DNA from: Clostridia bacterium
GTDB taxonomy: Bacteria > Bacillota > Clostridia > Oscillospirales > Acutalibacteraceae
DNA length: 64,000 nt
Reading direction: 5' to 3'
Assembly (NCBI GenBank): GCA_017461235.1
Contig: JAFTYU010000012.1
Location: forward strand, 32,029 to 96,028
Shown piece after piece: positions 10,078-50,624 of this stretch (within the stretch, counting starts at the first letter, position 1; each line of letters opens with the position of its first letter). Below the pieces are notes generated by a model. It was not told where the DNA came from. It did no database searches and saw nothing but the letters and a program-made list of their open reading frames with translations. Made by a program: the position numbers and the translations under genes.

Positions 10078-10109
10078 ACCTTATCATTTTTACACAAGGA
10101 GATGATATT

Positions 10110-11657: not shown

Positions 11658-11661
11658 CCCG

Positions 11662-11698: not shown

Positions 11699-11778
11699 TA
11701 TAAAAACTTTCACAAACTTTTAAATCCAAAAATGTCAGCATCTTCTTTTTTTCGTCACTTTGTTACAAACTGTACACA

Positions 11779-11905
11779 TTTGTTTGTGCAACTATAACAA
11801 AACATTTTCTTTAAACCACAATGATTTGTATAATTCTAAAACAAAGTATAAACAGTCTGGTGTTGTGCATATTGCACAAACACACAATGTTTTGTTTGTG
11901 CAACT
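11779..11905. promoter_or_regulatory. Operator-like cluster of TTGTGCAA sites
   Basis: Two exact copies of TTTGTTTGTGCAACT stand at 11779-11793 and 11891-11905, and between them lies a perfect palindrome TTGTGCA-TAT-TGCACAA at 11863-11879. The last copy ends five bases before the -35 box of the promoter at 11910. All three share the core TTGTGCA. The arrangement looks like a multi-site binding region for a dimeric regulator controlling the small gene at 11972. The regulator is not identifiable here. Confidence 0.55.
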
Positions 11906-11909
11906 TCAC

Positions 11910-11937
11910 TTGACTTTTTTTAAAAAATCATTATAAT
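11910..11937 (+). promoter_or_regulatory. Strong promoter for the 40-residue gene
   Basis: TTGACT (11910-11915) and TATAAT (11932-11937) with a 16-base spacer, 35 bases before the ATG at 11972. It is one of the best sigma-A promoters in the window. Confidence 0.75.
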
Positions 11938-11971
11938 AAAATCATAAATTAAAGGAAAGGAGTCCACAACA

Positions 11972-12094
11972 ATGGTAGACTACAAAGCACTCGAGCAAAA
12001 ATTGCTCAAAGAGATTGAAGAAGAAAAGGGCTTCTCCTTCAAGAAGCTTATCAAGATCATAGAGCTTGATGGTATTCTCAAAGAGTTGCAGTAA
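11972..12094 (+). CDS. Small highly charged protein, 40 residues, function unknown
   Basis: ATG 11972 follows AAAGGAAAGGAG by nine bases and opens a 40-codon frame: MVDYKALEQKLLKEIEEE, then KGFSFKKLIKIIELDG, then ILKELQ and TAA. The composition is almost all helix-forming, alternating Lys/Glu with Leu/Ile, which suggests an amphipathic helix pair and no membrane span. It has its own strong promoter, an operator-like repeat cluster upstream, and two hairpins downstream, so it is very probably expressed as a monocistronic unit. I recognise no family. It could be a regulator, a toxin or an antitoxin, but the sequence supports none of these in particular. Confidence 0.7.
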   Translation: MVDYKALEQKLLKEIEEEKGFSFKKLIKIIELDGILKELQ

Positions 12095-12118
12095 TCCTGC
12101 TTCTTCACCCACTAAAAA

Positions 12119-12167
12119 CCCTGAACATCGGTTTCACCCTATATTTACGCTGAAGCCGACTTCAGGG
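12119..12167 (+). other. Imperfect hairpin downstream of the small gene
   Basis: CCCTGAA (12119-12125) pairs with TTCAGGG (12161-12167), and inside it TCGGTTTCA (12128-12136) pairs with TGAAGCCGA (12151-12159) with one G-U pair. No strong T-tract follows, so it may be an mRNA-stabilising structure or a weak terminator. Confidence 0.5.
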
Positions 12168-12196
12168 CTCTATATAAATTTGTTTCATAAAGCATG

Positions 12197-12236
12197 AACA
12201 ACAAGCCGCCATAACAGGCGGCTTGTTGTTCTTTTT
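12197..12236 (+). terminator. Rho-independent terminator
   Basis: A perfect 14-bp stem (12197-12210 with 12217-12230), loop ATAACA, then CTTTTT. It closes the small-gene transcript. Confidence 0.85.
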
Positions 12237-12284
12237 AACATAAAATCAAGTGGAAAATTTAGGCATTTCAACAATCAAACTTTC

Positions 12285-12313
12285 TTGACTATGATAGTCA
12301 TTTAGTTTATATT
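12285..12313 (+). promoter_or_regulatory. Promoter with overlapping palindrome for the GH3 operon
   Basis: TTGACT (12285-12290) and TATATT (12308-12313) are 17 bases apart. A perfect palindrome GACTAT-G-ATAGTC (12287-12299) overlaps the -35 box, a position suited to a repressor operator. The GH3 start is at 12350. Confidence 0.6.
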
Positions 12314-12349
12314 TATCTTATATGAATACACTTAAAAGGAGCCAACACC

Positions 12350-18912: not shown

Positions 18913-18962
18913 ATGTTTTACCTCCTGAAATTTGTTTATGTTTTTAAAAATAGTTGTGGTTT

Positions 18963-19363
18963 GGTTTACCTCTCTAACTTTAGAGAGGGGGACCACCTTT
19001 TAATTAATTTTCCTCTTACAATTATCAAAAAGCGAGACTAAAATTTAATAAACGGATAGTTTTTGTCGGGTGGTGGAGAGTTTCCGATGCGGCAGCATCG
19101 TGGAAGCATCGCTTCCATTGACATAAAGTTTCTGTTATTAGGTTTTGGTTTTTAGTGATAGAATTATTGTTCTTATTTGCTTTATCGGTAAGGTGAATTT
19201 ATTACAATTGAATCTTACGATTCAACAACGCTTACGCGTTGGGAACTCTCCACCGCTCCGTCAGACGGTATTTTTAAATATAACTACTGGCACGTTTAGC
19301 ACCAATTACAAAAAGGCAAATATTGCAGGGCGGTCCCCCTCTCTTAGGCCAGAGAGGTAGAAC
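18963..19363. mobile_element. MITE-like element with 36-bp imperfect terminal inverted repeats
   Basis: The ends 18963-18998 and 19328-19363 are inverted repeats, matching at about 28 of 36 positions, and each end itself folds (CCTCTCT...AGAGAGG). Inside are a subterminal inverted pair around GGTGGAGAGTTTCC and its partner near 19232-19246, plus four small hairpins such as TTGAATC-TTAC-GATTCAA and AACGC-TTAC-GCGTT. It holds no plausible coding sequence. The left end lies 50 bases upstream of the protease start, so it is part of, or next to, that promoter. Non-autonomous element is an inference from structure. Confidence 0.6.
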
Positions 19364-19395
19364 AAACATCTGCTTAGCGTGATGGTGGTCCCTGC

Positions 19396-19428
19396 CATCC
19401 CTATTTCATCACAGATGAAACAGGGATG
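19396..19428. other. Hairpin in intergenic region
   Basis: CATCCCT-A-TTTCATC (19396-19410) pairs with GATGAAA-C-AGGGATG (19414-19428), one mismatch and a three-base loop. It has no T-tract. The rest of 19364-19597 holds no gene I can recognise. Confidence 0.45.
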
Positions 19429-19597
19429 ATGGGCTTCGCACATACCTGCTATTTCATTCTGTTTAAATTATAAAATACAAACTATACATCCATGTCGCAA
19501 ATTTATGAACAAAGCGTAAACACATTGTGTCATCTTATTGCAAATAAAAAATGCGCCCACCGAAGCAGACGCACAAAAAACGCAAACTCCGATAGTC

Positions 19598-19770
19598 GCC
19601 AAACTATTTTTATATGAAACAGGTATAATTACTCATCCCTACATATCAGCCGGATTTTGCATTTTTATCGAAATCTAACTAATATATAGGTTTCCCACCA
19701 TACGGCAAATAAGCGTAAATCCCTAAAAAGAAAATACACCTGTTTCCATATATATTAAAAATAGTTTGGC
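19598..19770. mobile_element. Short inverted-repeat element, about 173 bp
   Basis: GCCAAACTATTTTTA at the left end is repeated inverted at the right end (TAAAAATAGTTTGGC, to 19770), and the match extends inward to ACAGGT / ACCTGT with a short indel. The interior has no coding capacity. Size and structure fit a very small MITE or a long hairpin RNA; no target duplication could be assigned. Confidence 0.5.
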
Positions 19771-19814
19771 ATAATTAGTGTAACACACCAAACGCAAATT
19801 TACAACAAAAAAAT

Positions 19815-19850
19815 TAACCGACCTCAACAAATGGTCGGTTAGTTTTGTTT
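19815..19850. terminator. Bidirectional terminator
   Basis: A nine-bp stem (19815-19823 with 19833-19841) is flanked by A-rich sequence on the left and T-rich on the right, so it can stop transcripts in both directions. It serves the minus-strand phosphoesterase gene that ends at 19928. Confidence 0.65.
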
Positions 19851-19927
19851 TAGGATGATAGGCTTCGCATTACTTTATTTATAATCGGCACGAAGTGCTC
19901 CTTTAATTACGCATTATGAATTACGAA

Positions 19928-20473
19928 TTATAACGCTTTTTGTTCTATAACTTCTCCATCAAGTGTCTTATGTGTTATAGCAACATCATCCACAATCATA
20001 TACCCTCTCGGTGTGCTTTCTTTGGGTATCGAAACCGAACCGGGGTTCGCATAAATTACGCCGTCGGACAATTCTTCAATTTTGCTCACGTGGGTGTGAC
20101 CGTTAAAAAGGATATCACCCTTTTTGAGCTTAGGCATATTTTGCGGATTGAATTTGTGTCCGTGAGTTAAAAAAATCATTCTTGCTCCATGGTAAAGGAA
20201 AGCATATTCCGCAAGAACATTGAAATCAAGCACCATATCATCAACCTCTGCTTCGCAGTTACCGCGCACGCAAAGTATTTCCTGCGCCATACCGTTAAGA
20301 AGAGCTATAACTCCCTTGGGGTTATATTCTTCAGGCAAATCGTTACGGGGGCCGTGGTAAAGCACGTCACCCAAAAGAATGAGTTTATCGCATTTTTCCT
20401 GCGTGTATCTTTCGACTAACTCACGGCAATATTTTAATGAGCCGTGAATATCGGATGCTATCATTAATTTCAT
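19928..20473 (-). CDS. yfcE: YfcE/MJ0936-family metallophosphoesterase
   Basis: The 181-residue protein has every motif of the calcineurin-like phosphodiesterase fold in order: ASDIHGS, LLGDVLYHG, VRGNCEAE, FLTHGHKF and FNGHTHVS, which bind the two metals. YfcE hydrolyses phosphodiester model substrates; the cellular substrate is not known. The ATG at 20473 follows AAAGGAA. It is a single gene, divergent from the sugar symporter operon. A degenerate ATTATGAATTACGAATTA string directly downstream resembles the repeats near 121-150. Confidence 0.9.
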   Translation of the reverse strand: MKLMIASDIHGSLKYCRELVERYTQEKCDKLILLGDVLYHGPRNDLPEEYNPKGVIALLNGMAQEILCVRGNCEAEVDDMVLDFNVLAEYAFLYHGARMIFLTHGHKFNPQNMPKLKKGDILFNGHTHVSKIEELSDGVIYANPGSVSIPKESTPRGYMIVDDVAITHKTLDGEVIEQKAL

Positions 20474-26076: not shown

Positions 26077-26160
26077 GCGGGTGTGGCGGAATTGGCAGAC
26101 GCGCCAGATTTAGGTTCTGGTGGCACCCCCGTGCAGGTTCAAGTCCTGTCACCCGCACCA
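26077..26160 (+). tRNA. tRNA-Leu (anticodon UAG)
   Basis: An 84-base gene with acceptor stem GCGGGTG / CACCCGC, an anticodon stem CCAGA / TCTGG around loop TTTAGGT (anticodon TAG), a class II long variable arm and an encoded CCA end. The final 51 bases (26110-26160) recur exactly at 50571-50621, which marks it as a probable attachment site. Confidence 0.95.
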
Positions 26161-26165
26161 TCGCT

Positions 26166-26289: not shown

Positions 26290-27933
26290 TTACTGTTTAA
26301 ACAACACTGTCATCAAGGATTGTTTCTGTTTTTCTGTAGGTAAAGTCAGTTTACCGTTATTTACAAGCTCTTTCAGACAATGCAGGATAAACCAAGCATC
26401 ACTGTAAAAGATATGCTGTAAGCCGTACATTCTCATTTTCTGTAAATGTTTAGGTGTATTCTGAAGCACAGCATTGATATAAGGTGTTTTGAGTTTTTCA
26501 AACTCATCCTTATACTTTTCTTTTATCTTATCACCGATAGATAAAAGTTTCTTTCGTGATTCTTCATCTTTGATGTACACAATCCTCAAAGCTGTCTTGA
26601 ATAATTCATCAGGTTTACCACTGACAGATATATATCCTTTTTCAGCAAGATAAGCATAATCATCTTCGCTCAGAATTACATCATTAAGATAATTGTTCAG
26701 TAGTGTTAAATCACGGGCAACAGATAACTGATAGTTTTCTTCGATGCGATTATTAGACCATTCAGAATCAACAGTCCAAAGAGTTATTTTATCTGTAAGA
26801 CCGTTCCAGAACGGACCTTTGAATTTTTTCATTTCTTCGTTGTACATAGGCGGTTTCACATCAGGTGTTGCGACCGTTGCATAACAAATATTTTTACCAC
26901 CATCAGGTCTTATTGTGTAAATATCTGAAAAAGCTATGCTTTTATCCAATATGCCTTCACCACTGAAAGCAGTAATAACCGGTATAAGTGCCCACATAAG
27001 AAAGTTCTTATCCTGAGCGTTATTGTAGCCGCCTAAAACGCAATCGCTTTCTAATAAACCTGTTTTTTTAAGTTCATTGTACAACTCATTTGCAAAGAGT
27101 TTTGCAGCGTTCAAATACATTTCATCGTGTAAGCGGTTAAGTTCTTCTGTCGGTTCTGATATAAGGATATTGCAAAGATATTTATCTTTCTGTTTTAATA
27201 GAAATCCGTATTCTTCAAGAAACTCTGCTTCACTTTCAACATACACAGGTGAAACACCTAATTCATCAGCAATTTCATTTATTGATTTCGCTTCGTTTCT
27301 TACGGTGTAAACAATGTTCTGTGAAATAGCACTACGGAAGAAATTTGATATATCTCCCTTTGTTCCGATTTTACCGCTGAAGCTGCACATATCAAATCTT
27401 TTGGGATTAAACTTTAATTCACTGGGTTCTCTCATAATTTCAATACCTCTTTTCAGTTCTTTTTTAGCTTCAAACAAATGCCACTTTACTGTGCCGACAG
27501 GAATATTTAATTCTTTAGCTATCTGCTCCTGCTTTTGGTTTTCATAGTAATACATAATTACTATCCGGCGTTGCAACTTTGAAAGGTAGGCGATTTCAGA
27601 ATACAGCTTTGAAATTTCTTCTTGCTCAACGAGTGATGATTCAACACTCGGTGTATCATCACAAAGACAATCTTCCATATCACCAATGGGCACACCTGTA
27701 AAGCTGTGCTTATTGTCGCGGTAATAATTGCTCAGACAATTATGAGCAATAGTCCAGATGAATTTTGAAACATCTTCAATATCATCACGCTTGAGCAAAG
27801 CAACATAAACCTTAGCCATAATTTCCTGAGATAAATCTTCTGCATCTTCTATACTTCTGCACTTTTTTAAAGCAAAACCAAAGACAGGTTTTAAATATTC
27901 AGTTGTCCATCTTTCAGCATCTGTTCTGTTCAT
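26290..27933 (-). CDS. ECF-type sigma factor with a 370-residue C-terminal extension
   Basis: The 547-residue protein (ATG 27933, behind AAGGAGG) has sigma region 2 (RSIEDAEDLSQEIMAKVY) and region 4 (LSKLQRRIVIMYYYENQ then EQIAKELNIPVGTVKWHLFE) in its first 180 residues. A winged-helix-like segment follows (NEIADELGVSPVYVESEAEFL) and then a long unrecognised region rich in Tyr, Trp and charged residues. ECF sigmas redirect RNA polymerase, often on an extracellular cue; long C-terminal extensions can replace an anti-sigma factor or bind ligand. It is the first protein gene after the tRNA and lies in the AT-rich segment. The extension's role is unknown. Confidence 0.85.
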   Translation of the reverse strand: MNRTDAERWTTEYLKPVFGFALKKCRSIEDAEDLSQEIMAKVYVALLKRDDIEDVSKFIWTIAHNCLSNYYRDNKHSFTGVPIGDMEDCLCDDTPSVESSLVEQEEISKLYSEIAYLSKLQRRIVIMYYYENQKQEQIAKELNIPVGTVKWHLFEAKKELKRGIEIMREPSELKFNPKRFDMCSFSGKIGTKGDISNFFRSAISQNIVYTVRNEAKSINEIADELGVSPVYVESEAEFLEEYGFLLKQKDKYLCNILISEPTEELNRLHDEMYLNAAKLFANELYNELKKTGLLESDCVLGGYNNAQDKNFLMWALIPVITAFSGEGILDKSIAFSDIYTIRPDGGKNICYATVATPDVKPPMYNEEMKKFKGPFWNGLTDKITLWTVDSEWSNNRIEENYQLSVARDLTLLNNYLNDVILSEDDYAYLAEKGYISVSGKPDELFKTALRIVYIKDEESRKKLLSIGDKIKEKYKDEFEKLKTPYINAVLQNTPKHLQKMRMYGLQHIFYSDAWFILHCLKELVNNGKLTLPTEKQKQSLMTVLFKQ

Positions 27934-28036
27934 TTTGACCTCCTTGAAAGCTGCTTTCACCTATATAGACACGGAAGATTATAAAAGGTTGGGAGTTTTT
28001 ATAATAATTGTAGCATATAAACACTAATTTTTCCAA

Positions 28037-28660: not shown

Positions 28661-28695
28661 AAAAAAGCCGGGCAACCGCCAGCTTTTTGTTTTTT
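28661..28695 (-). terminator. Terminator at the end of the kinase/TIR operon
   Basis: AAAAAGC (28662-28668) pairs with GCTTTTT (28682-28688) around an inner CGG-GCAA-CCG stem with a small bulge. On the minus strand the following sequence is T-rich. Confidence 0.6.
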
Positions 28696-28764: not shown

Positions 28765-30585
28765 TTACTCTTCCATATAAGCTCGTTCTTTTCCTAACCC
28801 TAATCTCTTATTCAAATCAACTATATATCTGTTACCATCATCATCGAACCAGAAGAAGCGTTCGCCCTCACTTGAATAATTATATAGCCTTGTATCCGTA
28901 GCAAACCATATTCTATCCCTTGGGAAATCCTGAATTACAGAAGATATGGTATCCCAAATCTCATTAACATGCTCATCATCTTCACAAACATAACAGATTA
29001 TGGTTTCTTTTCCTGTATGGAAAGCTTCTGTCTTATAATTTTTTGCCGCATACAAGTCGCCGTCAAAATTTATAATACTTACCATCCTTACTAATTTTTC
29101 TTTGATGCTTTCCTTCTCGTTTGATAATTCAAAATCATAGGTGCGACGTACAGGCTCACCTATCATCAATATGTCGTTGCAAGTAACAGTACCATAAATT
29201 TTGGCACCATTTTTTTTGGCACCAACCACATGTATCACTTTTGCGGTATCATAATCATTCTTGATTTCATCCGGGTACGAGCTCAACCAATAAGTCAACC
29301 ATTGGTTAATTGCTAAAACAGATTTAACGTCATTACCATTTTGATATATATCAAAGGGATTATATCGATGTTCTCTGTTTAATTCACTTAACAATCTGGC
29401 TCCAACATCTGCTAATGAATATATCTGAAAATTCTCTTCAGCTGCAATACTATCTTTTTCAGTTTCATCAACTGTAACAAATTTTGAAATTGTAACCAGA
29501 TTATATCTTGCTAAGCGTTTGAAAATATCTGATAAACGATGAAGATTAATATTTCTCCAACCGTGTGATGTATAACCGCTTGCAAACATATCAATTATCA
29601 TTGCATTGGTCATATATCTGAACTTCTCTATCAGGGATAATGTATCAATTTCAAAAGCCCCTATATCATTTTTCATCAATGCAGATAACAGCGAGCTGTT
29701 GTTTCTTGCTGTAGGCACGGTATCGCCAACTTTAATTTGACGCAGCTTAGTATTTGGAACAAAAACAAAAGGTTTTTGCTCTGCATCCTTTATACGTCCA
29801 TATTTATTTCGGTTTTGGTTATCCTCTTTTCTGCAATAAGGGGTTATTTCTCTACCTTCAATTTGCTCCAGATATTTTTCTCTTATAAGCTGTAAGGCTT
29901 TTTTCCTTGTAAGACCATTTTTCAACGATACAGGAAATTCACCCGGAAGATATACAGATATGTTTTCCTGATTCATATAGTATAAATTCCCGTTGGAAAA
30001 GCAGTAATCCAAGGCTGGAATTTTTATTTCAAAAAATGCTGTTCCTTCATCTGTAATGTCATAAACCGAAACATCAATATCATAAACTTCTATCTTATCT
30101 ACCATTTCCTTATTCTTTCTTTTAAAGATATATGCTATATATTTTCTCAAATCTCTCCAAGAAATCAAATCGAAATCAGAAGCTTCATCAATATTTTCAG
30201 GCAGATACACAAACGGTGTTTCGTTCACCAAAGCCAAACTGCAATCTTTTATTTCTGTTTTCAAAAAAACACAATCTACATCTGCCAAGCAGTTTCCATT
30301 ATCCTCTGCATCATGGAAAACAACCCTTGTTTTTTTATATTCACCAAATTTTTTGTTAAACTCATCAGTTATAGCTGTTCTTACCTCTTTCCATGTAATT
30401 TTCTGCCAGATCTGATTAGTATCGTTTCCATTTGCAGGCATATTTACGGTTATAGTATCTGCCTTCAAGGATACAACAAAATCGGATATAGTTATGTTGC
30501 TTTCTTCAAACAAAATACTTGCTTTACATTTATCAACGGAAAACTCATAAAAAGTAATTATCATACCATAATTTTCAACATTCAT
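28765..30585 (-). CDS. Protein with three SpoVG-like N-terminal repeats and a winged-helix/replication-relaxation-like C-terminus
   Basis: The 606-residue protein shows three similar N-terminal units of about 75 residues: a beta-rich segment ending in a short aromatic or proline phrase (DTITVNMPA; TPFVYLPE; NISVYLPG), then a helix (ITWKEVRTAITDEF; ISWRDLRKYIAYIF; LTRKKALQLIREKY). This pattern resembles SpoVG. Around residues 325-380 a winged helix is likely (MIIDMFASGYTSHGW, then NLHRLSDIFKRLARYNLVT), and the rest resembles the C-terminus of replication-relaxation proteins (DFELSNEKESIKEKL; ETIICYVCEDDEHVNEIW). The start overlaps the TIR gene by 11 bases behind GGGGGAA, so translation is coupled. 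Domain calls are by eye and moderate at best. Confidence 0.6.
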   Translation of the reverse strand: MNVENYGMIITFYEFSVDKCKASILFEESNITISDFVVSLKADTITVNMPANGNDTNQIWQKITWKEVRTAITDEFNKKFGEYKKTRVVFHDAEDNGNCLADVDCVFLKTEIKDCSLALVNETPFVYLPENIDEASDFDLISWRDLRKYIAYIFKRKNKEMVDKIEVYDIDVSVYDITDEGTAFFEIKIPALDYCFSNGNLYYMNQENISVYLPGEFPVSLKNGLTRKKALQLIREKYLEQIEGREITPYCRKEDNQNRNKYGRIKDAEQKPFVFVPNTKLRQIKVGDTVPTARNNSSLLSALMKNDIGAFEIDTLSLIEKFRYMTNAMIIDMFASGYTSHGWRNINLHRLSDIFKRLARYNLVTISKFVTVDETEKDSIAAEENFQIYSLADVGARLLSELNREHRYNPFDIYQNGNDVKSVLAINQWLTYWLSSYPDEIKNDYDTAKVIHVVGAKKNGAKIYGTVTCNDILMIGEPVRRTYDFELSNEKESIKEKLVRMVSIINFDGDLYAAKNYKTEAFHTGKETIICYVCEDDEHVNEIWDTISSVIQDFPRDRIWFATDTRLYNYSSEGERFFWFDDDGNRYIVDLNKRLGLGKERAYMEE

Positions 30586-33500
30586 CTGTTATTCCCCCGT
30601 TTTGTTTTAATAATTTACGACCACTTGGTTCACTTATAGTGCCTTGAATATTACAAAAATTACAACCAAAAATTGTTATACCCTTGTATGAAGTAAAAAC
30701 TTCTTTCTTTAAGGTATTTTTATTAATTATAATCAGCTTGTTATTCAATCTGTGTATTTCATAATCAGGATTCTCACTATCCTTAAACATATTAAATATA
30801 GTGTATACCTTGCTTGGCTCAAAAAAACGATTTCTTTCAAAATCATAGCCTACGCAAACCGGTTCATTTTTTTGAGTAAATCTTTTATCTGCTGTTATTA
30901 CAAACATTTTATCTTTTTTATCCAGCATATTATCTTTTCCGAAAGAAACAGACGAAAATTTCATAGAAGGTTTTCTTATTCTGTTTACATTCATTTTGTC
31001 GGAAAACTGTTTTATTGAACCAGCAGTATCATACGTGTACAAGATGTTTTTATTGTACATTACTCTTAAAATATTAGGAAGTGACTCACCCACATATTTA
31101 GATTCGATTTTAAAATCTTTATTCAGTAAAATGATATCAACACCCGAACCAACAAGGATTTTTCCACTGTCTAAACAACATACCGTTTTAACCGATGAAT
31201 TTAATGTCAAAATATTACGGATGCTCAGCGTCTCACTATCATATTCCACAACACTGCTTCCGAATGCAACAATAAAGGTTTCTTCATTACAACTGTATTT
31301 TAAATCTGTTGTCTTTTTGCCCTTTAAAACATCTCTCATATGAATCTCGTTAGTCAACTCATATCTAGCCTCTTTCTGTTCGTACACATAAACTATACCA
31401 TACATACCACTTCTGAATATTTTGTTCCTGGATGAGTTTATAATCGCACAGCCACAAGGCATATCATCCTGAGTAAGGCATCGGGTTTCCTCGTTATCTA
31501 ATAATTGCCAGGTTAAGGGAGATGTATCGAAGGTGATTTCTAATTCACCACTCTCGTTATATCTTACGTGCCTATATGTATTTTTACTTGTGGTAATAAG
31601 GCGTAATTCTTCTGACTCAGTGTTATAAACAAACACATCGTGTTGTTTTAATATAGCCAAACAATTCTCATAGCAAGCCAGACACACAACAGCACCCTCA
31701 CCCGTATCAACACACCATACAGGCTTATCGCTATCCATTGACCAGCATTTAACATTTCCATCTAAATCTGCTGAGAAAAATCTTTCTCCGGCTGCACAGA
31801 GTGCAGAAACCTGTGCTTGATGACCTGATCTGATAAAGCATTCTGTATCTATATAAGCCCCCTCAAAAGAAGACGGATATACAGAATCTTCATACCACTC
31901 TGAAAAACGACAGCTCTTTAACTGACATTTTCTTAAATCCAGATAAGAAAAGTCACAATTATATAATCGCCTGTTCCTACCGATTGACATAATTGTCATA
32001 ATATTGTATACCGCATTCTGCGCACCTTCGTTAAACACACCTTTAAAAACGCTTAATGCCTTTTCTGAATCCGAATACTCTGATGGTACTAAACATGCAT
32101 TTTTACCAGGAAATGTTATACCGCGATCATCAAAAACAGGCTTTGCTTTTTCTTCAGCCGATATCTGTGCCACATATTTTAAAATCTCGTTAGAATATGC
32201 TCTTTCGGTCAGCTCAGTCCCTGCTTTTGCATCAGGAACTGTCAGCATTTCAATTTTCTTTGCAATAAACATTGCTGCAAAAAAATCTCTGAAGCACTGA
32301 TGGAAAAAATCATACATACAGTCCTCAACTGTTCCCGTTTTAACTAATAACGATATTTTCCCAAAGATTATTTGCAACAGCTCTAATTCATCAAAGCTTT
32401 TTTTACTCAACCCCAATTTGAATGCCAACTTTTTTACTCTTCTGGAATAATAATATCTATAACTATCGCTATCCAGCATATTCTCTTCACTCAAAAGATC
32501 AAATACCTCATATTCAGATATCTGTTTTTTATTATTGCTGATCATATAATAAGCAATCAGCGGAAGTACATATTCAATAGCAAAAAAGGAATCGCAAATA
32601 ATCGAACCGGCACACTCTTCATTCAAACGATACAATTGGCTCTGTAAAAAATTCCATATCACTTGTCCTTCTGTTTCCGGCTCCACTGTCTGATATATTT
32701 TATAGTAATTGGAATAATGTGAGATTGATTCACTATAATCAAAATCTGTATTAACATACAGCATCAACATCAAGGGATTTGACAATAACGAAAGCATTCT
32801 CTCGCTCAGCTTTGAATCAGAGCCTCTTTTTTCCAAAAATCTTTTTACACTTTCGACACTGAGAGGTTCAAGCTTTATTGATGAACTTTTAATGTATCCG
32901 GGCAAATCATAAACAACATCATTTCTTGAAGATATAACAACCTGCGTATTTGACCAGGTCATAATATCTGAAATTTCCACAAGAAGCTTCTTTCTGTCAC
33001 CGCTGAACTCATTAAGACCATCAAATAATATTCTAAAGGGTCTGTTACTTCCGGTACATTTGCCATATCTTTTAAACACATCCCAGGTTAAATCCAGCTC
33101 TTCCTTAAGATACAGCGATAAATTATCAGAAATTTTATTTAACGGAACATATATAACAGGGTCAAATTTAGAGAAAAAATGATTAAATATATTCTTTAAT
33201 GCTACAGTTTTTCCCGAACCACCATCGCCGACTATTATAAACTGCGTGTCAGTTTTTTCCGATAGCTTTTCAATCAATAACAAATTGTTGTTCTCTGCGG
33301 ATTCAATTTCCGAGTCAATAGAAATAGGCGGATAAAGCTCTTCCTCCAGCTTAAAAAGATGGTAGTTTCCAAGTGTAACTCTTTTATGATATCTTTCTAT
33401 ATCATCAAATATTGTTGGTCTGATAAAAGGCATAGGCCCTTCTTTTTTTTCACCGAATACATATTCACTTAATTTTTCAAAGGAAATCGAGTCAAACATC

Positions 33501-33904
33501 TTATTACATAACTGAGTAAAATCCTCTTCATTATCAATTCCCTGATTGAAATTAACCTGATTTACTCCTGAAAAAATGAAATCCAATGCATGTCCCGGTG
33601 GTGGTATTACAGCTTCTACATACACAGCTAAGCAGTTTTTCTGATGATTATGTGCATATTTAATTTCCTCACTGCAAAAAATCTTTTCAATATAAGTGCT
33701 TGAAACCAACGAAATAAAAATAGAGGAATCATAAATTGCGCTGGCTATTTTATCATTAAAATCCTCTTTGCCGCGAATGTTCTCATAATCTATCCATACA
33801 TCAAAACCTTTTTCTTTTATCTTTTCTGTAATTTTTTTTGCTATTTCTGCATCGTGATGCGCATACGATATAAAAATATATGGTTCAATTTCCATTTTAT
33901 TCAT
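30575..33904 (-). CDS. TIR-NACHT-beta-propeller STAND protein
   Basis: The 1109-residue protein has three parts. Residues 9-100 are a TIR domain (YIFISYAHHDAEIAKK, GFDVWID, then FCSEEIKYAH, where E80 fits the catalytic Glu of TIR NADases). Residues about 185-480 are a NACHT-type P-loop NTPase with Walker A GDGGSGKT (226-233), Walker B ILFDGLNEF (292-300) and VVISSRND. The second half has pentapeptide-like CDFSYLDLRKCQLKSCRF, then WD40-like repeats (GNVKCWSM; YGIVYVYEQ), ending in TIFGCNFCNIQG. Proteins of this build sense phage or other danger signals through the repeats, oligomerise, and deplete NAD+. The target here is unknown. Confidence 0.85.
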   Translation of the reverse strand: MNKMEIEPYIFISYAHHDAEIAKKITEKIKEKGFDVWIDYENIRGKEDFNDKIASAIYDSSIFISLVSSTYIEKIFCSEEIKYAHNHQKNCLAVYVEAVIPPPGHALDFIFSGVNQVNFNQGIDNEEDFTQLCNKMFDSISFEKLSEYVFGEKKEGPMPFIRPTIFDDIERYHKRVTLGNYHLFKLEEELYPPISIDSEIESAENNNLLLIEKLSEKTDTQFIIVGDGGSGKTVALKNIFNHFFSKFDPVIYVPLNKISDNLSLYLKEELDLTWDVFKRYGKCTGSNRPFRILFDGLNEFSGDRKKLLVEISDIMTWSNTQVVISSRNDVVYDLPGYIKSSSIKLEPLSVESVKRFLEKRGSDSKLSERMLSLLSNPLMLMLYVNTDFDYSESISHYSNYYKIYQTVEPETEGQVIWNFLQSQLYRLNEECAGSIICDSFFAIEYVLPLIAYYMISNNKKQISEYEVFDLLSEENMLDSDSYRYYYSRRVKKLAFKLGLSKKSFDELELLQIIFGKISLLVKTGTVEDCMYDFFHQCFRDFFAAMFIAKKIEMLTVPDAKAGTELTERAYSNEILKYVAQISAEEKAKPVFDDRGITFPGKNACLVPSEYSDSEKALSVFKGVFNEGAQNAVYNIMTIMSIGRNRRLYNCDFSYLDLRKCQLKSCRFSEWYEDSVYPSSFEGAYIDTECFIRSGHQAQVSALCAAGERFFSADLDGNVKCWSMDSDKPVWCVDTGEGAVVCLACYENCLAILKQHDVFVYNTESEELRLITTSKNTYRHVRYNESGELEITFDTSPLTWQLLDNEETRCLTQDDMPCGCAIINSSRNKIFRSGMYGIVYVYEQKEARYELTNEIHMRDVLKGKKTTDLKYSCNEETFIVAFGSSVVEYDSETLSIRNILTLNSSVKTVCCLDSGKILVGSGVDIILLNKDFKIESKYVGESLPNILRVMYNKNILYTYDTAGSIKQFSDKMNVNRIRKPSMKFSSVSFGKDNMLDKKDKMFVITADKRFTQKNEPVCVGYDFERNRFFEPSKVYTIFNMFKDSENPDYEIHRLNNKLIIINKNTLKKEVFTSYKGITIFGCNFCNIQGTISEPSGRKLLKQNGGITDEC

Positions 33905-34058
33905 CTTTAACCCTCACACATTTTAAACAAATCTGTTTATCTAACTTTCATATAGTTGATATATCTTTACATTATTTAATTTCCTGATTAACTTGGCATT
34001 TCTGCATCAACAATCAACTGTAATCTTCTTCTGCACATAGCAATAATTCTCACAATTG

Positions 34059-34550
34059 TTATGTGCAAATCCGCTTATACGTTGACAGAAACTCCAATTC
34101 CTGTACTCCATAAACATCATCAAAGTCCTTGTTAAAAACAAGATAACCACCGGCAACTAAATTCTGTTTTTCTCCCCAAGGTGCAACAAAACAAATATTC
34201 TCATCAATTTGAGCAGCTGTAATAGGATTCCAGATAGGTTTAAACCTATCATCAGTATCAGCAATTCTTTCATATTTCTTTTTAAATACAGAATCTGAAA
34301 CAATATATTGTTCACCTGTAGAATTAGTAACAACCCAACCGGGATAACCGTTTTCATCTGCCGTTACTGTGTTTTTTGTTTCCTGCAATCCATTAGCCAT
34401 TACTGTCAATATTTCTTCGCCGATTTTACCAATCCTTGCGGTAATTTCGCCCGACTTCTGGAAAGTTTCTGATATGAGATTACCGCTATTTAAACCATTT
34501 GTAAGATATTCTTTAATATTCTCAATTGTTCTGAATTCATTATTTCTCAT
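34059..34550 (-). CDS. PGDYG-like small protein
   Basis: The 163-residue protein has a C-terminal half GYPGWVVTNSTGEQYIVS, then FKKKYE and FVAPWG ... GGYLVF, which resembles the PGDYG family (proteins of unknown function). The first 60 residues are helical. It is translated from ATG 34550 behind AAAGGAG, 77 bases after the giant kinase gene and 154 bases before the TIR gene. Its small size, position and helical N-terminus would fit an adaptor or a substrate for the flanking kinase; that is inference. Confidence 0.7.
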   Translation of the reverse strand: MRNNEFRTIENIKEYLTNGLNSGNLISETFQKSGEITARIGKIGEEILTVMANGLQETKNTVTADENGYPGWVVTNSTGEQYIVSDSVFKKKYERIADTDDRFKPIWNPITAAQIDENICFVAPWGEKQNLVAGGYLVFNKDFDDVYGVQELEFLSTYKRICT

Positions 34551-34627
34551 AATAAAATCTCCTTTTCTTGTGTTAATAACATCTTACATCAAGTAACCCT
34601 ATAAATATTCGTGGGGGGATATATATA

Positions 34628-37600
34628 TCACTCATTAAGAATATCATAAAGTGTTTTTGCAATATCATTTAAGGCTGCATCATTATATACCGTAAGTATT
34701 TGTTTTCGTTTGCCGTAGTTAAGTATTTCATCAGGATATTTTTGCACTGATTCATCCTTTTGATATTTATCTGCAACTAATATCGCCTTACTGTTAAGTC
34801 CGAATTCGTTTGTAAGGTCATGCAATTTATCATAATAATTATTTTCCAGAGAATTGGTGGTTTTGCACTCAACAAAGGCAGATTTAAAGCCGCGTGTTAA
34901 TACTATATCGAACTCATTTTTATCATTTTCATTGCCAGCACGATTGATTTCATAGCTGGTTGCAACATCATCAAAAAGTCCGCTTTTTAAACACGCAATA
35001 TATACATACATCTCCAGAATAGCACCAGATTTTGTTAAAAGCTGCTGACTTTTCTGCGATGTAAAGCAGAAAGAAAAGCTGTTATCAACCCATTTAATGT
35101 TAGTAATCAAGTGTTGAGCATTCAATGAGTTCAAAATAAAATCAATCTGATTCTTTTTATATCCAAAATTCTCACCTGAAAGTGAATCTAAAGAAACATT
35201 GTCAATCATAAGGTCATTTGCCTCGATAACAGCTTCTGTTTTCTTCATATAGCATAGCAAGCTATCTTCATCGCAAAGATAATAGATGTTTTCAAAAAGC
35301 TTCTCAAAACCACAGATGCACTTCTTTGAAACCTGATTCAATTCAACTATGCACCTGTCTGTATGCTGACGGTACACGTGAGAATTATTGTCTATGATAT
35401 TGTGCTTTTTTAAAAATACTTCTACCTTTTTCAAAGCATCAAAAGCAAATACAGGAGCATAAAAACGTTTCGAGCAACAATCTGTTTCTGCTTTTTTACC
35501 ACCAAACTCAATTGCCTGACTACTATTCTCACCTAAAACTCTGCATAATGTTTTCCAAAGTCCGCGATTCTTTAAATAAATCTCGAATATGCCCTTATAT
35601 TCATCAAAGAATTCCGGAAATTCGGTATTTTTACCACGTGCATTGCTTATTCTAAACAAGTCGGAAACAGTAAGCACCTTGTTAGATTTTATATAATTCA
35701 GGAAGTTACATGCTTCGTTAGCGTGAATTTGGAATTCCGAATCCAGACTAAAGGACGGAATTTTATTTACATTATCAATAAATATTTCCGACAAATTTAT
35801 TAAGCCATTCAGTTTTTGAATAGCGCTGACCTTGCTTAAGCTACAAATTGCTTCACGGATTTTTTCAGTTGCATCCATTTCAACAACTTCAACAGCCTTA
35901 ATTCTATCGCACTGCAACAGCTCGTTTTTCAAAGCCTGTATATCAGCAGAGCTGGTTATATTTTTCTTATTCCATTCAATTACAACATTAACCTTGGTTT
36001 TGTAATCGCCATCCACTAGATAGTCGTTGATTTTTTGGAAAAACACCCTAGTCTGCTCTATATCGTTCTTTTCAGCAATACAGCAAACATAGCATACCTT
36101 TAAGGGATTGATAATAGTAATCGCTGCTACATTTGTAAAAACATCCTTTACAGGTACTTCCTTAGTATAGCGATTATAATTATCGCTTAATCTAAGGGGG
36201 ATTACTATATCCAGATTATGCTTATATGTAAGAATGAATGGTATGTATTGTACAAGATCCTCATCTTTTTTCTTATAATCATCATACCTTAGGCTTTCTA
36301 CAATGGGATAATAAATCAAATGGATATTATTGATTATCTCCAAAGCCTTTTTCTGGTCCGCTTTTCTTATCAAGTAATTTCCGTTTTCATCCTCTGCCTG
36401 AATAGCTGTTTCCATTCTTTTTTTCAAACCTTTGTATTTGGAAACGGCTCCCTTTTCTTTATTCCAAAGGGATATTAAACAATGGCACCAATCAAAATAA
36501 GCATATTCAACCAAACGCTTTCCTAAAATCAAGTTTCTAAGTTGAGTTTTATAATTTTCCAGGGTAACGTCATTTTTTCTTGTTTTGTTTGCAGCCTTTT
36601 TCAAGCCGCGATGAAGATTAACTGAGAGCGCATCCAGCTCATCCAATTTTTCTATTTGTTTTATTGATGCATTATCAAAGAAATTTTCATCAAACTTGAT
36701 TTTCTTAATATCTTTATCTCGTTCAGGTGTGCTTCTGACTAAGCAAACATGTTTTTTTGCTTTTTCGTCATTTATAAAGCCGTTATAACAGGCCTGCAGA
36801 TTAGTTTGCCTTGTCCAACCCTTACAGATTTTCTCTGCAACCCATCGTCTGTGTTCAACTGCAACAAGCTCATTAAAATTAGTTTTATCCTCATTTAATA
36901 AAACCTTCTCGCAAAAAATATCTGCTGCTTCATTTAAATCACTGCAGTCTATCCCTATACTTTTAAGCTTGTATTTTGTTGAAACAACGTTTGCTATGCA
37001 GGATGTATAATTATATGTTTTTCTGAACTCTTTTCTTACGTCCTTGTAGCTATAATTACTATCCTGTATCCAAACAAGATGAGCGTTTAAACCCATTCTG
37101 TTAAGCTCAGTCAACTCTTTTCTGGGAACAGACTTGCTGAGAATTATGGCGTTACCAACATTTTCTGCATTTTTTATTGGCTTTTCCAGAACGTAGTTTA
37201 CAGAATATCCCTCAGGCTTAGCACACTGTGCAACTGTACTAAAGCTTTTTGCTGCGTTATAATTCACCTTATCATTTCCAAGTGAAACAAAGATATAATC
37301 AGGAGCTTTTTCTGCCAAATCCAGTGCAATACCATCGTTTTTATGAAAATCTGTTGTAAAGTCAACCTCTTTAAAATACAAATTACCATAAGCTTTTTCT
37401 TTTTCAGACTCTTGGAATGAATTATCTACTGAAAAGAATTCTTGCAATGCAGGTCTATTTTTCAGATACAAAGCTTTTTCGCTTTCAGAATTCTGCGTTG
37501 CAACGGTAACATTCAGTTTTTTATTATGCATCTGCCCGATTTGCAGGCAACAATCCAAAAATCGTTGACCGTGATTACCAAAACCCGCCACCAACACAGT

Positions 37601-38791
37601 GATTTCCTTTGCTTCGTTATCAGAAAATTCATACAACGGATGTTTATATAAATGATTCAGGAACAGAACTTCCGCTTTAACGGGCTTTTTATCTAATTTT
37701 TCTGATACAGCTTTTAAACTTATTCTTTCATTGTATTCAGTAGCCAACAACAAACGACGCATCTGTTCTAAAGCGGCCACTATATCTTCACAGCTGTAAT
37801 TACGTCTGTCGTTCTGCTTTATCAATAATCCTTTCAACAATTGACAAAGAAGCTCAACTAATCTGATATTGTTTGTTGAGTCAGTTGCTGTTATAAGCTC
37901 AGATTCTTTAATCAGGCGTTCAATATTATCATACGCCTTATCACAATACCCTTCAATTTCACCTGTGATCGCCGCAAATAAAAGGCATCCAATAGAATAA
38001 ACGTCACTTCTTCGGTTTATCAACTCGTTGCACTGCATTCTGACCTCAGGAGCGCTATAACCTATAGTTCCAAGGTCTTCAATAACCATATCTTCATACA
38101 CAGAATGGAGCGTATTGATATCAAATAAATAGATGTTATCTGTTAGTACATTTTCCTTAAACGTTGGTATTCCAAAATTGTTTGGCTTGATGTCCAGGTG
38201 CAAAAAACCCTTTTCGTGTAAAACACCAATACGGTTAGTCAAGGTTATCATCGTACTTAATAACGTAAATAATTTGTGCTCCGGCAGATTATCGTAGTCA
38301 CGATGAAGCTGTTTGATAAAATCTGAGAACAGTGTTATTTTTCTGTTTTCCGTCCAGATATATAGAGTTGGATGTTCGGGGGCGTTACCATTCATATCGC
38401 AACTTTCGTAAACTGTAAAATCAGGTATAAAAGATGATATATCAGAGCCTTCCTTTTTATCTATAAATATTTCTTTAAGTTTGTTATGTGATTTCAAAAA
38501 CAACTCTTTTTCTCTTTCTGCTTCAGAAAAATTTGAAGCAGTGTATTGTAGCATATTATCAGCGTGACGGGTAAATCCACCCACCAAACCAAGAGGATAG
38601 AATTCTTTAAGTCTTCCGACTCTGTTTTCACTCAAAAGAATAGCATTATAGCAGATACAAGAACTGCCTTCACCTTCTATATCCAAAACATTAAATCTCT
38701 CTGTTATGTTTGTCCCAAGTTTTTTTAAAAGTATGTTTCTTGATTCTTCACCATTTCCCAAATTTATAAAATCAGGGGTTTTTCTTCCCAT
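34628..38791 (-). CDS. Giant fusion: protein kinase - TrkA-N-like Rossmann - RyR domain - DUF1887/Card1-like nuclease
   Basis: The 1387-residue protein (ATG 38791 after AAGGGTGA) has an active-looking Ser/Thr kinase at 35-350: GEGSSC loop, K62, HLDIKPNN with D200, FDIN with D224, SAPEV at 246-250. An NAD-binding-like Rossmann unit starts at VLVAGFGNHGQRF (399-411). A RyR domain follows (VEHRRWVAEKICKGW, 645-659; KKHVCLVRS). A region near 885-1000 may be a degenerate CARF-like Rossmann fold but lacks the NxTGGT motif. The end is a PD-(D/E)XK nuclease: GAILEMYVY (E1260), NEFDIVL (D1295), VECKTT (E1308, K1310), closest to Card1/DUF1887 nucleases. Its start is 12 bases after the stop of the gene before it. 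Confidence 0.8.
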   Translation of the reverse strand: MGRKTPDFINLGNGEESRNILLKKLGTNITERFNVLDIEGEGSSCICYNAILLSENRVGRLKEFYPLGLVGGFTRHADNMLQYTASNFSEAEREKELFLKSHNKLKEIFIDKKEGSDISSFIPDFTVYESCDMNGNAPEHPTLYIWTENRKITLFSDFIKQLHRDYDNLPEHKLFTLLSTMITLTNRIGVLHEKGFLHLDIKPNNFGIPTFKENVLTDNIYLFDINTLHSVYEDMVIEDLGTIGYSAPEVRMQCNELINRRSDVYSIGCLLFAAITGEIEGYCDKAYDNIERLIKESELITATDSTNNIRLVELLCQLLKGLLIKQNDRRNYSCEDIVAALEQMRRLLLATEYNERISLKAVSEKLDKKPVKAEVLFLNHLYKHPLYEFSDNEAKEITVLVAGFGNHGQRFLDCCLQIGQMHNKKLNVTVATQNSESEKALYLKNRPALQEFFSVDNSFQESEKEKAYGNLYFKEVDFTTDFHKNDGIALDLAEKAPDYIFVSLGNDKVNYNAAKSFSTVAQCAKPEGYSVNYVLEKPIKNAENVGNAIILSKSVPRKELTELNRMGLNAHLVWIQDSNYSYKDVRKEFRKTYNYTSCIANVVSTKYKLKSIGIDCSDLNEAADIFCEKVLLNEDKTNFNELVAVEHRRWVAEKICKGWTRQTNLQACYNGFINDEKAKKHVCLVRSTPERDKDIKKIKFDENFFDNASIKQIEKLDELDALSVNLHRGLKKAANKTRKNDVTLENYKTQLRNLILGKRLVEYAYFDWCHCLISLWNKEKGAVSKYKGLKKRMETAIQAEDENGNYLIRKADQKKALEIINNIHLIYYPIVESLRYDDYKKKDEDLVQYIPFILTYKHNLDIVIPLRLSDNYNRYTKEVPVKDVFTNVAAITIINPLKVCYVCCIAEKNDIEQTRVFFQKINDYLVDGDYKTKVNVVIEWNKKNITSSADIQALKNELLQCDRIKAVEVVEMDATEKIREAICSLSKVSAIQKLNGLINLSEIFIDNVNKIPSFSLDSEFQIHANEACNFLNYIKSNKVLTVSDLFRISNARGKNTEFPEFFDEYKGIFEIYLKNRGLWKTLCRVLGENSSQAIEFGGKKAETDCCSKRFYAPVFAFDALKKVEVFLKKHNIIDNNSHVYRQHTDRCIVELNQVSKKCICGFEKLFENIYYLCDEDSLLCYMKKTEAVIEANDLMIDNVSLDSLSGENFGYKKNQIDFILNSLNAQHLITNIKWVDNSFSFCFTSQKSQQLLTKSGAILEMYVYIACLKSGLFDDVATSYEINRAGNENDKNEFDIVLTRGFKSAFVECKTTNSLENNYYDKLHDLTNEFGLNSKAILVADKYQKDESVQKYPDEILNYGKRKQILTVYNDAALNDIAKTLYDILNE

Positions 38792-38803
38792 TTTATTCAC
38801 CCT

Positions 38804-40465
38804 TTAGTCCATATATAATTTGTTGTTGACCCTGCAGTATGCAAAAAATACAACTAACATATCAAACACGTTTTTGTAGTCCAATTTGCAAAATCCGGCT
38901 TCCTCAAGTGTTTCGTTTAACCACATTTCGAAATCAAGTAAAACGTCGGAAAACATTCTTGGAGCATCGAAATTATCCATACAATAGCCGTGAAAATATG
39001 CAGCAATTAATTTTGTTCGTGTTATTTTAGCAACCTTTTCATCGTTATAAATGCTCAATGTTTCGAAGGGATCCAAACGTTCATTTACTTTCTCAATCAA
39101 AATCCTAAAATCCTCATCAAATATCGGCATACTTTCGACATCAAATTTATTCAGCTCCAACTCCCAAAGAGAATCCAATTCTTTCTTATATTCATTAGAA
39201 AGAGCAAGGTTTTCTTTTTTAGAACGTATTTTAGTATTTATAACCTTCAAAGCCGATCTAAACTCTTTTTTGCTTATTTCAAGATTTCCGGCAATTTCAT
39301 CCCTGATAGTGTCATAGCATTTGTATATAGTATTGTGTGAAAATGCAAGACCAAAAGGAGACGATCCCTTTTTAAGTTTGCAATTATAATGCCACAAAAT
39401 ATATTCTTCAATTTCCTCTTCATCCAATTGTAAAACAATTTTTATAAAATTATCTTTCTGTTGGTTTGTTGACAATAATTCGAAAACATTTTCTTGCTCA
39501 CTGTTTGCAGCCTTCTTTTTTATATTTTTTAATACTTTATATATTTTCTTTATTTTTTGTTCAGCAGAATAGCATTCTTTATTCATAAAATAAATGAATA
39601 CTGCTTCAGCATAATTTTTGTAATCTATACCAAGGCCCAAAGGCTCATCCTCATAAGCAGAATTATTCACATTCTTATATGATGTAATGTATCTTATCAG
39701 ATTATCATTATAGTAATCATTGAAAATATTTTTTACGATATCTTTTTCTTTGCAATATTCTTCTGTTTCATAGGGATAATATTTCATACCCAAAACAATT
39801 GCTAACAAATATAAAGGTTCTTTAGAGGCCCCATTATTTTTAAACTTGCCTTCAGCAAGTTCCTGAGCTAGAACAAGCAAGGAATATTTATCTTTTTTCT
39901 CTTCTTTTGTCGCAGCTTGTAAAACCTCAAAAACGCCATCATCCACAACCAAAAGCTCATTTATATCCTTTGGCTTTTCTTTATCTATATATTTTTTTAT
40001 GTGAGCTAAGCCGGTATAACCTGCGGCAGTCAGACCATGTCCGTATTTCAAAAACTCTTTAAGAATTCTTAATCTCATTGTTTCTTCTTTTTTAAATTCT
40101 TCACTTCCGCAATTATCCAGGATTCTTTCCATTATTTTGGCAGGTTGAGGAAAGTCTTTATATATACCATATAGATATTTCCAGATTTCGTTATCTAAAT
40201 CCTCTTTACTTTCATACAGTGTTCCTGCAGGAACAGTTCGTAATAAATCTATGTAGTATTCAGGAGTTTGCCCTATTTCACATGCTATACCAATACTTTC
40301 ATATAACCTCACAACTTCTGCACTGTCGGAGGGGTATTCCGTTTTGGTGCATTTTTTTAATGCCATAACTTTATCCTCAAATTCTGCTTGTAAGTGTAAA
40401 GTTGAAATTTTATTATTAAAAGATTCGTATTGTTTTCTTGCTTTTAATGTTAAATTATTTTCCAT
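38804..40465 (-). CDS. Unknown helical protein, first gene of the putative conflict operon
   Basis: The 553-residue protein begins at ATG 40465, seven bases after AAAGGAG. It is rich in Lys, Glu, Tyr and Leu with mostly helical segments and no transmembrane helix, signal peptide or catalytic motif that I can see. The C-terminal third (FDEDFRILIEKVNERLDP onward) looks like a compact helical domain. It is the first gene of a minus-strand operon behind a near-perfect promoter, and the kinase fusion gene starts 12 bases after its stop. In such operons the first protein is often the sensor or regulator; nothing in the sequence proves this. Confidence 0.7.
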   Translation of the reverse strand: MENNLTLKARKQYESFNNKISTLHLQAEFEDKVMALKKCTKTEYPSDSAEVVRLYESIGIACEIGQTPEYYIDLLRTVPAGTLYESKEDLDNEIWKYLYGIYKDFPQPAKIMERILDNCGSEEFKKEETMRLRILKEFLKYGHGLTAAGYTGLAHIKKYIDKEKPKDINELLVVDDGVFEVLQAATKEEKKDKYSLLVLAQELAEGKFKNNGASKEPLYLLAIVLGMKYYPYETEEYCKEKDIVKNIFNDYYNDNLIRYITSYKNVNNSAYEDEPLGLGIDYKNYAEAVFIYFMNKECYSAEQKIKKIYKVLKNIKKKAANSEQENVFELLSTNQQKDNFIKIVLQLDEEEIEEYILWHYNCKLKKGSSPFGLAFSHNTIYKCYDTIRDEIAGNLEISKKEFRSALKVINTKIRSKKENLALSNEYKKELDSLWELELNKFDVESMPIFDEDFRILIEKVNERLDPFETLSIYNDEKVAKITRTKLIAAYFHGYCMDNFDAPRMFSDVLLDFEMWLNETLEEAGFCKLDYKNVFDMLVVFFAYCRVNNKLYMD

Positions 40466-40506
40466 ACCCTTGCTCCTTTGAAGTCTAATTGCTAAATTCA
40501 ATTTTT

Positions 40507-40535
40507 ATTATACTTTCTTGATTAGAGACAGTCAA
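40507..40535 (-). promoter_or_regulatory. Consensus promoter of the kinase/TIR operon
   Basis: On the minus strand TTGACT (40530-40535), a 17-base spacer, and TATAAT (40507-40512), about 42 bases upstream of the first ATG. It suggests constitutive sigma-A expression. Confidence 0.8.
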
Positions 40536-50453: not shown

Positions 50454-50579
50454 TTGACAATCCCATTTTTCTATATTATTATGCAAATAGTCAGAAAACT
50501 CTAAAAATAAAAAAGCCGAGAACCCTTGATTCTATTGGGTTTACGGCTTGTCATCCAGGTGGTGTTACCGTTAGGTTCT
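50454..50579 (+). repeat. 126-bp island-end module, copy B
   Basis: About 93% identical to 40621-40746 with no gaps. TTGACA (50454-50459), 17-base spacer, TATTAT (50477-50482), hairpin AGCCGAGAACCC (50514-50525) with GGGTTTACGGCT (50537-50548), and then the tRNA-Leu 3' half. The sequence 50285-50453 shows nothing else I recognise. Confidence 0.8.
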
Positions 50580-50621
50580 GGTGGCACCCCCGTGCAGGTT
50601 CAAGTCCTGTCACCCGCACCA
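50571..50621 (+). other. Exact 51-bp copy of the tRNA-Leu(UAG) 3' half (probable attR)
   Basis: These bases are identical to 26110-26160: part of the anticodon arm, variable arm, T-arm, acceptor strand and CCA. A direct repeat of a tRNA 3' end is the classic footprint of tyrosine-recombinase integration, with the intact gene at the other end of the island. No integrase gene lies between the repeats, so the element is either decayed, a satellite, or mobilised in trans. Confidence 0.85.
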
Positions 50622-50624
50622 TAG

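Follow-up and report, generated by a model that had tools for sequence, protein, structure and literature searches.

A cluster of five genes in the genome of a Clostridia bacterium of the family Acutalibacteraceae raises the question of whether a TIR protein and a very large kinase-nuclease protein encoded close together work as one immune system. The genes lie on the minus strand of a 64,000-nucleotide stretch (assembly GCA_017461235.1, contig JAFTYU010000012.1, positions 32,029 to 96,028), which we call the window, and an earlier note on this DNA had proposed them as an undescribed conflict or immune operon. Our analysis indicates what looks like a conserved operon type that resembles a defence system and is undescribed in the open-access literature searched: the pairing of gene 1 with the large protein (hereafter, the giant) and that of a TIR-NACHT gene with a SpoVG gene both recur elsewhere, whereas gene 3 is not conserved and the PP2C phosphatase gene, a usual member of related loci, is absent from the window. 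Judging from sequence comparisons, we see an even chance that the operon is a Thoeris-like abortive or toxic defence system, in which a TIR-made signal, an RyR sensor, a CARF-nuclease output and a phosphorylation gate would be combined.

The five open reading frames (ORFs), of 565, 1390, 163, 1109 and 606 amino acids, respectively, are the following:

38804..40465, minus strand: gene 1, an all-helical protein of no assigned family, neighbour of kinase-form giants
34628..38800, minus strand: gene 2, the giant (GTG start), with a kinase, a TrkA/RCK Rossmann domain, an RyR domain and a CARF-helix-turn-helix-PD-(D/E)XK nuclease
34059..34550, minus strand: gene 3, a PGDYG-like protein (a weak call; PF14083, E 0.013, below the cut-off)
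30575..33904, minus strand: gene 4, a TIR - STAND/NACHT NTPase - WD40-like propeller protein with TIR residue E80 (TIR_2, E 5e-22)
28765..30585, minus strand: gene 5, a SpoVG-family-linked protein

Their coordinates, common strand and spacing (3 bases between genes 1 and 2, 77 between genes 2 and 3, 154 between genes 3 and 4, and an 11-base overlap of genes 4 and 5) agree with those given earlier.

Domains of the Giant

The giant is composed of these parts:

37718..38746, minus strand: protein kinase domain, amino acids 19-361, with K65, D203, N208 and D227 (Pkinase, E 2.2e-12)
37130..37660, minus strand: TrkA/RCK-type Rossmann domain, amino acids 381-557
36584..37003, minus strand: RyR-like domain, amino acids 600-739, with E649, H650, W653, H684, D720 and D723 (below the Pfam cut-off)
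34631..36220, minus strand: Card1/Can2-like unit (CARF-like fold, middle part and PD-(D/E)XK nuclease), amino acids 861-1390, with D1278, E1296, D1298, E1311 and K1313

Relatives were collected by scanning 84,980 species genomes with two short peptide patterns; the scan, which is not exhaustive because only such patterns were used, retrieved 38 loci (L numbers below), and three further loci were added. After removal of L038, L040 and L049 (contigs of L011, L013 and L012, respectively), of L047 and L048 (99% identical to L029) and of L051 (an RyR fragment only), the set holds 36 distinct giants, 25 with the kinase and 11 without it. The counts include the giant of L044, a shortened ORF of 769 amino acids in which the CARF and nuclease parts are missing and which a convergent TIR-WD40 ORF overlaps. 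Since ORFs were called mechanically, their N-termini may be too long, and gene 1 in L029, for example, overlaps a TIR ORF. Giants are rare and scattered, being present in 2 of 398 genomes of the window's phylum (two further matches cover the kinase part only) and in 3 of 118 relatives, with the window's own genome included in both counts.

The catalytic residues listed for the window kinase are retained in most of the 25 kinase-form giants. RyR residues H650, W653 and H684 are present in 35 of 35 rows compared, D720 in 34 and D723 in 33, and are kept more strictly than the rest of the glycine motif (G408 in 26 of 35 rows, G411 in 15). The H, W, H and D of the giant, kept in 35, 35, 35 and 33 of 35 rows, match, by motif and not by alignment, ligand residues H75, W78, H100 and D117 of RyDEP, a phage RyR-domain protein that, as described in a preprint (PMC13232231), cuts 2′ and 3′ cyclic ADP-ribose (cADPR); six of eight phage homologues tested there bound these signals. 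Comparison of the RyR-like region with a solved RyR fragment by hhalign gave 92.7%.

The Card1-type nuclease passes its Pfam cut-off in the window (PF09002, 27.9 bits against 26.4) and, at E 0.001, is found in 28 of the 35 giants examined. In the predicted fold, a CARF domain stands in front of the nuclease as one unit, which matches Card1 and Can2 bound to cyclic tetraadenylate (cA4), and PADLOC returned CARF_PDDEXK matches in the giant; profile matches of the window protein to CARF-nucleases span the nuclease part alone. By this model, the giant carries a whole Card1/Can2-like CARF-nuclease and not a nuclease alone. Of the kinase-Rossmann-RyR-nuclease order suggested earlier, the kinase and the nuclease are backed by Pfam, and the RyR domain falls far below its cut-off; the nuclease residues then named E1308 and K1310 do exist and become E1311 and K1313 when numbered from the GTG start.

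A Putative Phosphorylation Module Co-inherited with the Kinase Form

Among the kinase-form loci, 22 extend far enough upstream for gene 1 to be looked for, and a profile of its family detected members in 18 of them, either directly before the giant or with a PP2C gene in between. None was detected in L012, L026, L032 and L036; a 552-amino-acid gene in L012 and a 664-amino-acid gene in L036 were considered as homologues and not supported (hhalign 2.5% and 0.2%, respectively), and both loci were counted as misses because homology was not shown. PP2C phosphatases accompany 15 of 24 kinase-form giants, in 14 cases directly upstream and in one, L026, as a fusion. Neither gene 1 nor PP2C is found with any of the 11 kinase-less giants. 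Conversely, gene 1 occurs in 2 of the 398 phylum genomes, both times adjoining a giant, and in the sampled loci its family always sits beside one. The putative phosphorylation module is thus inherited together with the kinase form of the giant. In L036 (positions 8163-13204), the catalytic motifs of kinase and PP2C have been lost together. This joint loss and the fusion in L026 point to kinase and PP2C as a putative working pair.

TIR Genes Near Giants and Related RyR Proteins

A TIR domain is encoded within 4 kb of 10 of the 36 giants (in the window, L012, L013, L021, L025, L028, L029, L035, L044 and L046; a weak TIR_2 match in L020, E 0.0031, was left uncounted). With the carriers' own TIR density and random placement, 0.47 such giants would be expected; the corresponding P value of 2.7e-11 overstates the association, since defence genes cluster. 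At the level of genomes, TIR_2 is over the cut-off in 31 of 33 carriers (32 at E 0.001), compared with 35 of 99 relatives (three of them carriers; Fisher P 2.1e-9) and 38 of 249 phylum genomes (two of them carriers; Fisher P 7.7e-20), the latter being drawn from the window's phylum and matched inexactly because the carriers include at least one Planctomycetia and one Synergistaceae bin. The carrier set omits L045 (assembly of L027), L038, L040, L049 and L051. A control family, Mrr_cat, showed no enrichment (13 of 33 carriers against 91 of 249 phylum genomes, P 0.85). In one carrier, G106, four of five TIR_2 matches fall on the 66-kb contig of the giant.

Apparent operons that hold TIR genes together with giants are seen in L021, L025, L028 and L046. 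L028 has two TIR genes ahead of gene 1, the second overlapping it; in L025, a TIR gene and the end of the giant, which is of the kinase-less form, overlap. In L021 (Eubacterium sp. HAN014), gene 1 is followed in turn by PP2C, giant, a small gene, kinase-TIR, TIR-NACHT and SpoVG protein, the last two being homologous to window genes 4 (E 4e-43) and 5 (E 1e-7), respectively. As can be seen, the TIR-NACHT/SpoVG pair recurs behind the giant in a distant relative; among the loci seen, this is the sole full-length homologue of gene 4. In gene 4 itself, TIR and NB-ARC pass the Pfam cut-offs and NACHT is just below (24 against 26.7 bits); E80 is at the position given earlier. SpoVG, after which gene 5 had been called a SpoVG-repeat protein, is clear in the L021 homologue (18953-20362; PF04026, E 1.3e-24), and Pfam found nothing in gene 5.

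Proteins of a second, membrane type adjoin the giants of L014, L044 and L046; their N-termini contain hydrophobic segments, as judged by eye, and they have TrkA-like domains and share the RyR motif of the giants. In L046, the giant is followed by such a protein, TIR-MORN and TIR-TPR, with overlaps or short gaps between genes. A profile built from the three proteins retrieved relatives in 16 of 266 genomes. Five of the 16 loci fetched have a TIR gene within 3 kb (L086, L087, L088, L089 and L099), and the eight genomes shared with the relatives' TIR_2 set all carry TIR_2. Thus, RyR proteins with a different likely output also accompany TIR genes. Double-AAA proteins with an FtsH-like peptidase M41 adjoin membrane-type RyR proteins in L014 (16379-19864), L088 (9244-12618) and L101 (9425-12943), and are a possible third output of RyR systems.

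Proposed Mechanism and Its Alternatives

From the genes, domains, predicted fold and co-inheritance described above we infer the following course of events. The NACHT and propeller part of gene 4 would sense infection and activate the TIR domain, which would convert nicotinamide adenine dinucleotide (NAD+) into an ADP-ribose-type signal (a cyclic isomer or similar). As the conserved residues suggest, this signal would bind the RyR domain of the giant, beside the TrkA/RCK Rossmann domain, upon which the C-terminal nuclease, Card1/Can2-like in its modelled fold, would be released and would cut nucleic acid. In the kinase form, the co-inherited kinase, gene 1 and usual PP2C would act as a phosphorylation gate that probably keeps the nuclease off until the signal arrives, and would set the threshold; genes 5 and 3 would be accessory. 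TIR domain and nuclease, whose presence is confirmed, had been taken for two independent effectors; the TIR domain is better read as the signal producer for the RyR sensor.

More tentatively, and with less confidence than in the Thoeris-like reading of the operon, we propose a kind of bacterial immunity whose host receptors for TIR-made signals would be RyR domains, with either a Card1-like nuclease held by kinase and PP2C or a membrane protein as effector. RyR domains are known as calcium-channel modules of animals. If the proposal is true, RyR joins the SLOG and macro domains as a host-side receptor of TIR-derived signals, it becomes clear why phages have RyR proteins that cut these signals or bind them, and the nuclease is controlled in an unusual way by two keys, one a nucleotide-type signal and the other a kinase/phosphatase pair. 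Bacteria would then offer a test bed for the old question of direct cADPR-type action on RyR domains, and the combination of TIR signal, receptor domain and phosphorylation gate would recall immune and calcium signalling of animals and plants.

Several observations weigh against this view. No TIR domain lies within 4 kb of 26 of the 36 giants (some contigs are short) and no TIR gene lies near 11 of the 16 membrane-type loci. With the control genomes inexactly matched, the TIR excess may come partly from lineage or from general defence richness; Mrr_cat suggests that the latter does not account for it, yet this is one family only. The window RyR region scores 12.9 bits with PF02026 against a cut-off of 27.4 (E 0.14), the same profile finds none of 35 giants at E 0.001, and no RyR chain is among the rows shown of the structure comparison, in which amino acids 600-860 were poorly tested. 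The TGG motif, which we take to be expected in the CARF stretch, was seen by eye in 1 of 35 rows (L049, the L012 locus) and not in the window, whose CARF motif is unrecognisable. Most kinase-less giants with scanned neighbours lie amid metabolic or unrelated genes, so that homologues standing alone, named earlier as an argument against an operon, are indeed common in this form, but not for gene 1 and the kinase form. Relatives of the giant were absent from viral contigs and phages, and a plasmid search with it gave two matches, both in its kinase part, which span 7% and 14% of the query.

The many giants without a TIR neighbour would also be expected if the giant with gene 1 (and PP2C) were one system and TIR-NACHT/SpoVG another, sharing an island and no signal. 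The variety of TIR partners (TIR-kinase, TIR-Sel1, TIR-VWA and TIR-NACHT), the cas3/cas5/cas8-like genes that adjoin L011 (by eye) and the 154- and 77-base gaps around gene 3 fit this explanation as well. We nevertheless regard it as rather unlikely, given that nearly all giant genomes carry TIR_2, though often elsewhere in the genome, that TIR genes overlap the giant in L025 or gene 1 in L028, that the TIR-NACHT/SpoVG pair stands behind the giant again in L021, and that membrane-type RyR proteins are likewise found near TIR genes. Alternatively, the TIR domain could deplete NAD+, with the level of NAD(H) or ADP-ribose being sensed by the Rossmann/RyR region of the giant and kinase and nuclease acting in response. 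We consider such sensing improbable, since the RyR ligand residues are kept more strictly than the rest of the glycine motif and the RyR precedent (PMC13232231) concerns cADPR-type ligands.

The whole CARF-nuclease fold, with its likeness to cA4-bound Can2 and Card1, and the PADLOC matches would suit a CRISPR-type accessory nuclease switched through CARF by type III cyclic oligoadenylate, with kinase, Rossmann and RyR domains as extra regulation. The scarcity of TGG and the restriction of the window's profile matches to the nuclease part speak against it, and we assign such control of the giant, while conceivable, a low probability. A phosphorylation-regulated stress or housekeeping regulator with no role in defence would account for the kinase-less giants amid metabolic genes; the rarity and scatter of giants, the island position of the operon, its nuclease and TIR content and the near-identical blocks in three differently labelled assemblies (see below) make this very improbable.

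Genes 1 and 3 and the Surrounding Segment

The gene 1 ORF opens at TTG 40501; ATG 40465, located behind AAGGAG, is more likely to be the start. Pfam assigned gene 1 to no family (one chance-level row, E 0.28), its predicted fold has a pLDDT (a model confidence score) of 80.5, and no relatives were found in viral contigs. Gene 3 retrieved itself alone when 571 ORFs of the giant loci set were searched by phmmer at E 0.01, and a 211-amino-acid gene at the same position in L012 is dissimilar to it and matches no Pfam family. On these grounds, the PGDYG-like gene was rejected for now as a conserved part of the operon, contrary to what had been supposed.

The operon lies in a segment with these features:

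40507..40535, minus strand: promoter-like site TTGACT-17-TATAAT, 11/12 matches
28661..28695, minus strand: terminator-like hairpin with a T run, seen by eye
26077..26160, plus strand: tRNA-Leu (ARAGORN), one end of the AT-rich segment
40738..40790 (approximately), plus strand: diverged tRNA-Leu-like 3′ half, the other end

Promoter and terminator, both noted before, are plausible for the operon and statistically ordinary: promoter-like sites number 60 in 28-42 kb against 57.5 ± 8.4 in shuffled sequences, and the hairpin has an ordinary folding energy (z -0.87) and is absent from the terminator scan list. The segment is AT-rich, as claimed, the 2-kb bins of 28-40 kb having the lowest guanine-cytosine content in the window (0.322-0.347; remaining bins 0.351-0.473). 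It is tRNA-bounded at one end only, since ARAGORN finds a single tRNA in the window and the other end is the diverged 3′ half. DNA homology to a congener, G006, ends close to the latter, at 40795, and homology to G017 at 40860; in neither does it resume with the tRNA-Leu flank. No integrase was identified among the part of the window's genes that was scanned. The tRNA-Leu 3′ half (26110-26161) has an exact 52-nucleotide direct copy 24 kb away, at 50571-50622, and with the diverged third copy these look like attachment-site remnants of tandem insertions.

Adjoining the operon on the same strand, 26290-27960 encodes an extracytoplasmic function (ECF)-type sigma factor (first ~175 amino acids) and, after it, a winged-helix-like stretch that CasR/CARF3 profiles match weakly. 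Elsewhere, L029, L047 and L048 share blocks of 9.8-11.1 kb (TIR-Sel1, gene 1, PP2C and giant) that are 99.1-99.7% identical; the three assemblies bear the labels Anaeroplasma, Christensenella and [Clostridium] spiroforme, and the likeness reflects either recent transfer or misbinned contigs. A common set of genes for an OmpA-like lipoprotein, a membrane protein and small proteins lies near the kinase-form giants of L012 (2675-6101) and L013 (1541-3596 and 13760-15082).

Comparison with Known Systems

No description of the five-gene combination was found in the open-access literature; an earlier description elsewhere is possible. Like Thoeris (ThsB TIR plus ThsA), the operon would couple a TIR gene, here gene 4, with an effector that is a protein of its own and carries a nucleotide-type sensor, and an NAD+-derived signal would be expected. 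The type III Thoeris model ThcB4 of NCBIfam, however, scores 45.8 bits against a cut-off of 220, and Pfam at E up to 1 shows no SIR2-SLOG or macro-domain ThsA-type effector in the five proteins; since this defining feature is missing, the operon is not filed as Thoeris. Its sensor would be RyR with Rossmann and its effector a CARF-type nuclease, to which kinase, PP2C and gene 1 are added.

The CARF-nuclease unit is a relative of Card1, Can2 and VC1899 (DUF1887, CARF4-PDDEXK); the giant differs from them in that its CARF motif is unrecognisable in the window and in the ~860 amino acids that precede the unit and comprise kinase, Rossmann, RyR and helical linker. With RyDEP and RyR (PF02026, Repeat12) it shares the H..W, GW and H.C motifs and a later Asp, but RyDEP (PMC13232231) belongs to a phage and removes the signal by cleavage or sequestration, whereas the RyR domain of the giant would be a host sensor within an effector. 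Gene 4 has the TIR - STAND NTPase - propeller order of bacterial TIR-NACHT/STAND proteins and differs from them in being paired with a SpoVG-type protein and the giant. The likeness to the kinase-bearing defence proteins PD-T4-6, MAD6 and PglW is limited to the kinase domain (PADLOC, E 2.8e-14), the matched profiles lacking the rest of the giant's architecture. A CARF family with a kinase and an AAA+ ATPase, on record in PMC4012209, also differs from the giant in architecture. The operon would pair nucleotide-type alarm sensing with a phosphorylation switch of a type found in animal cell signalling.

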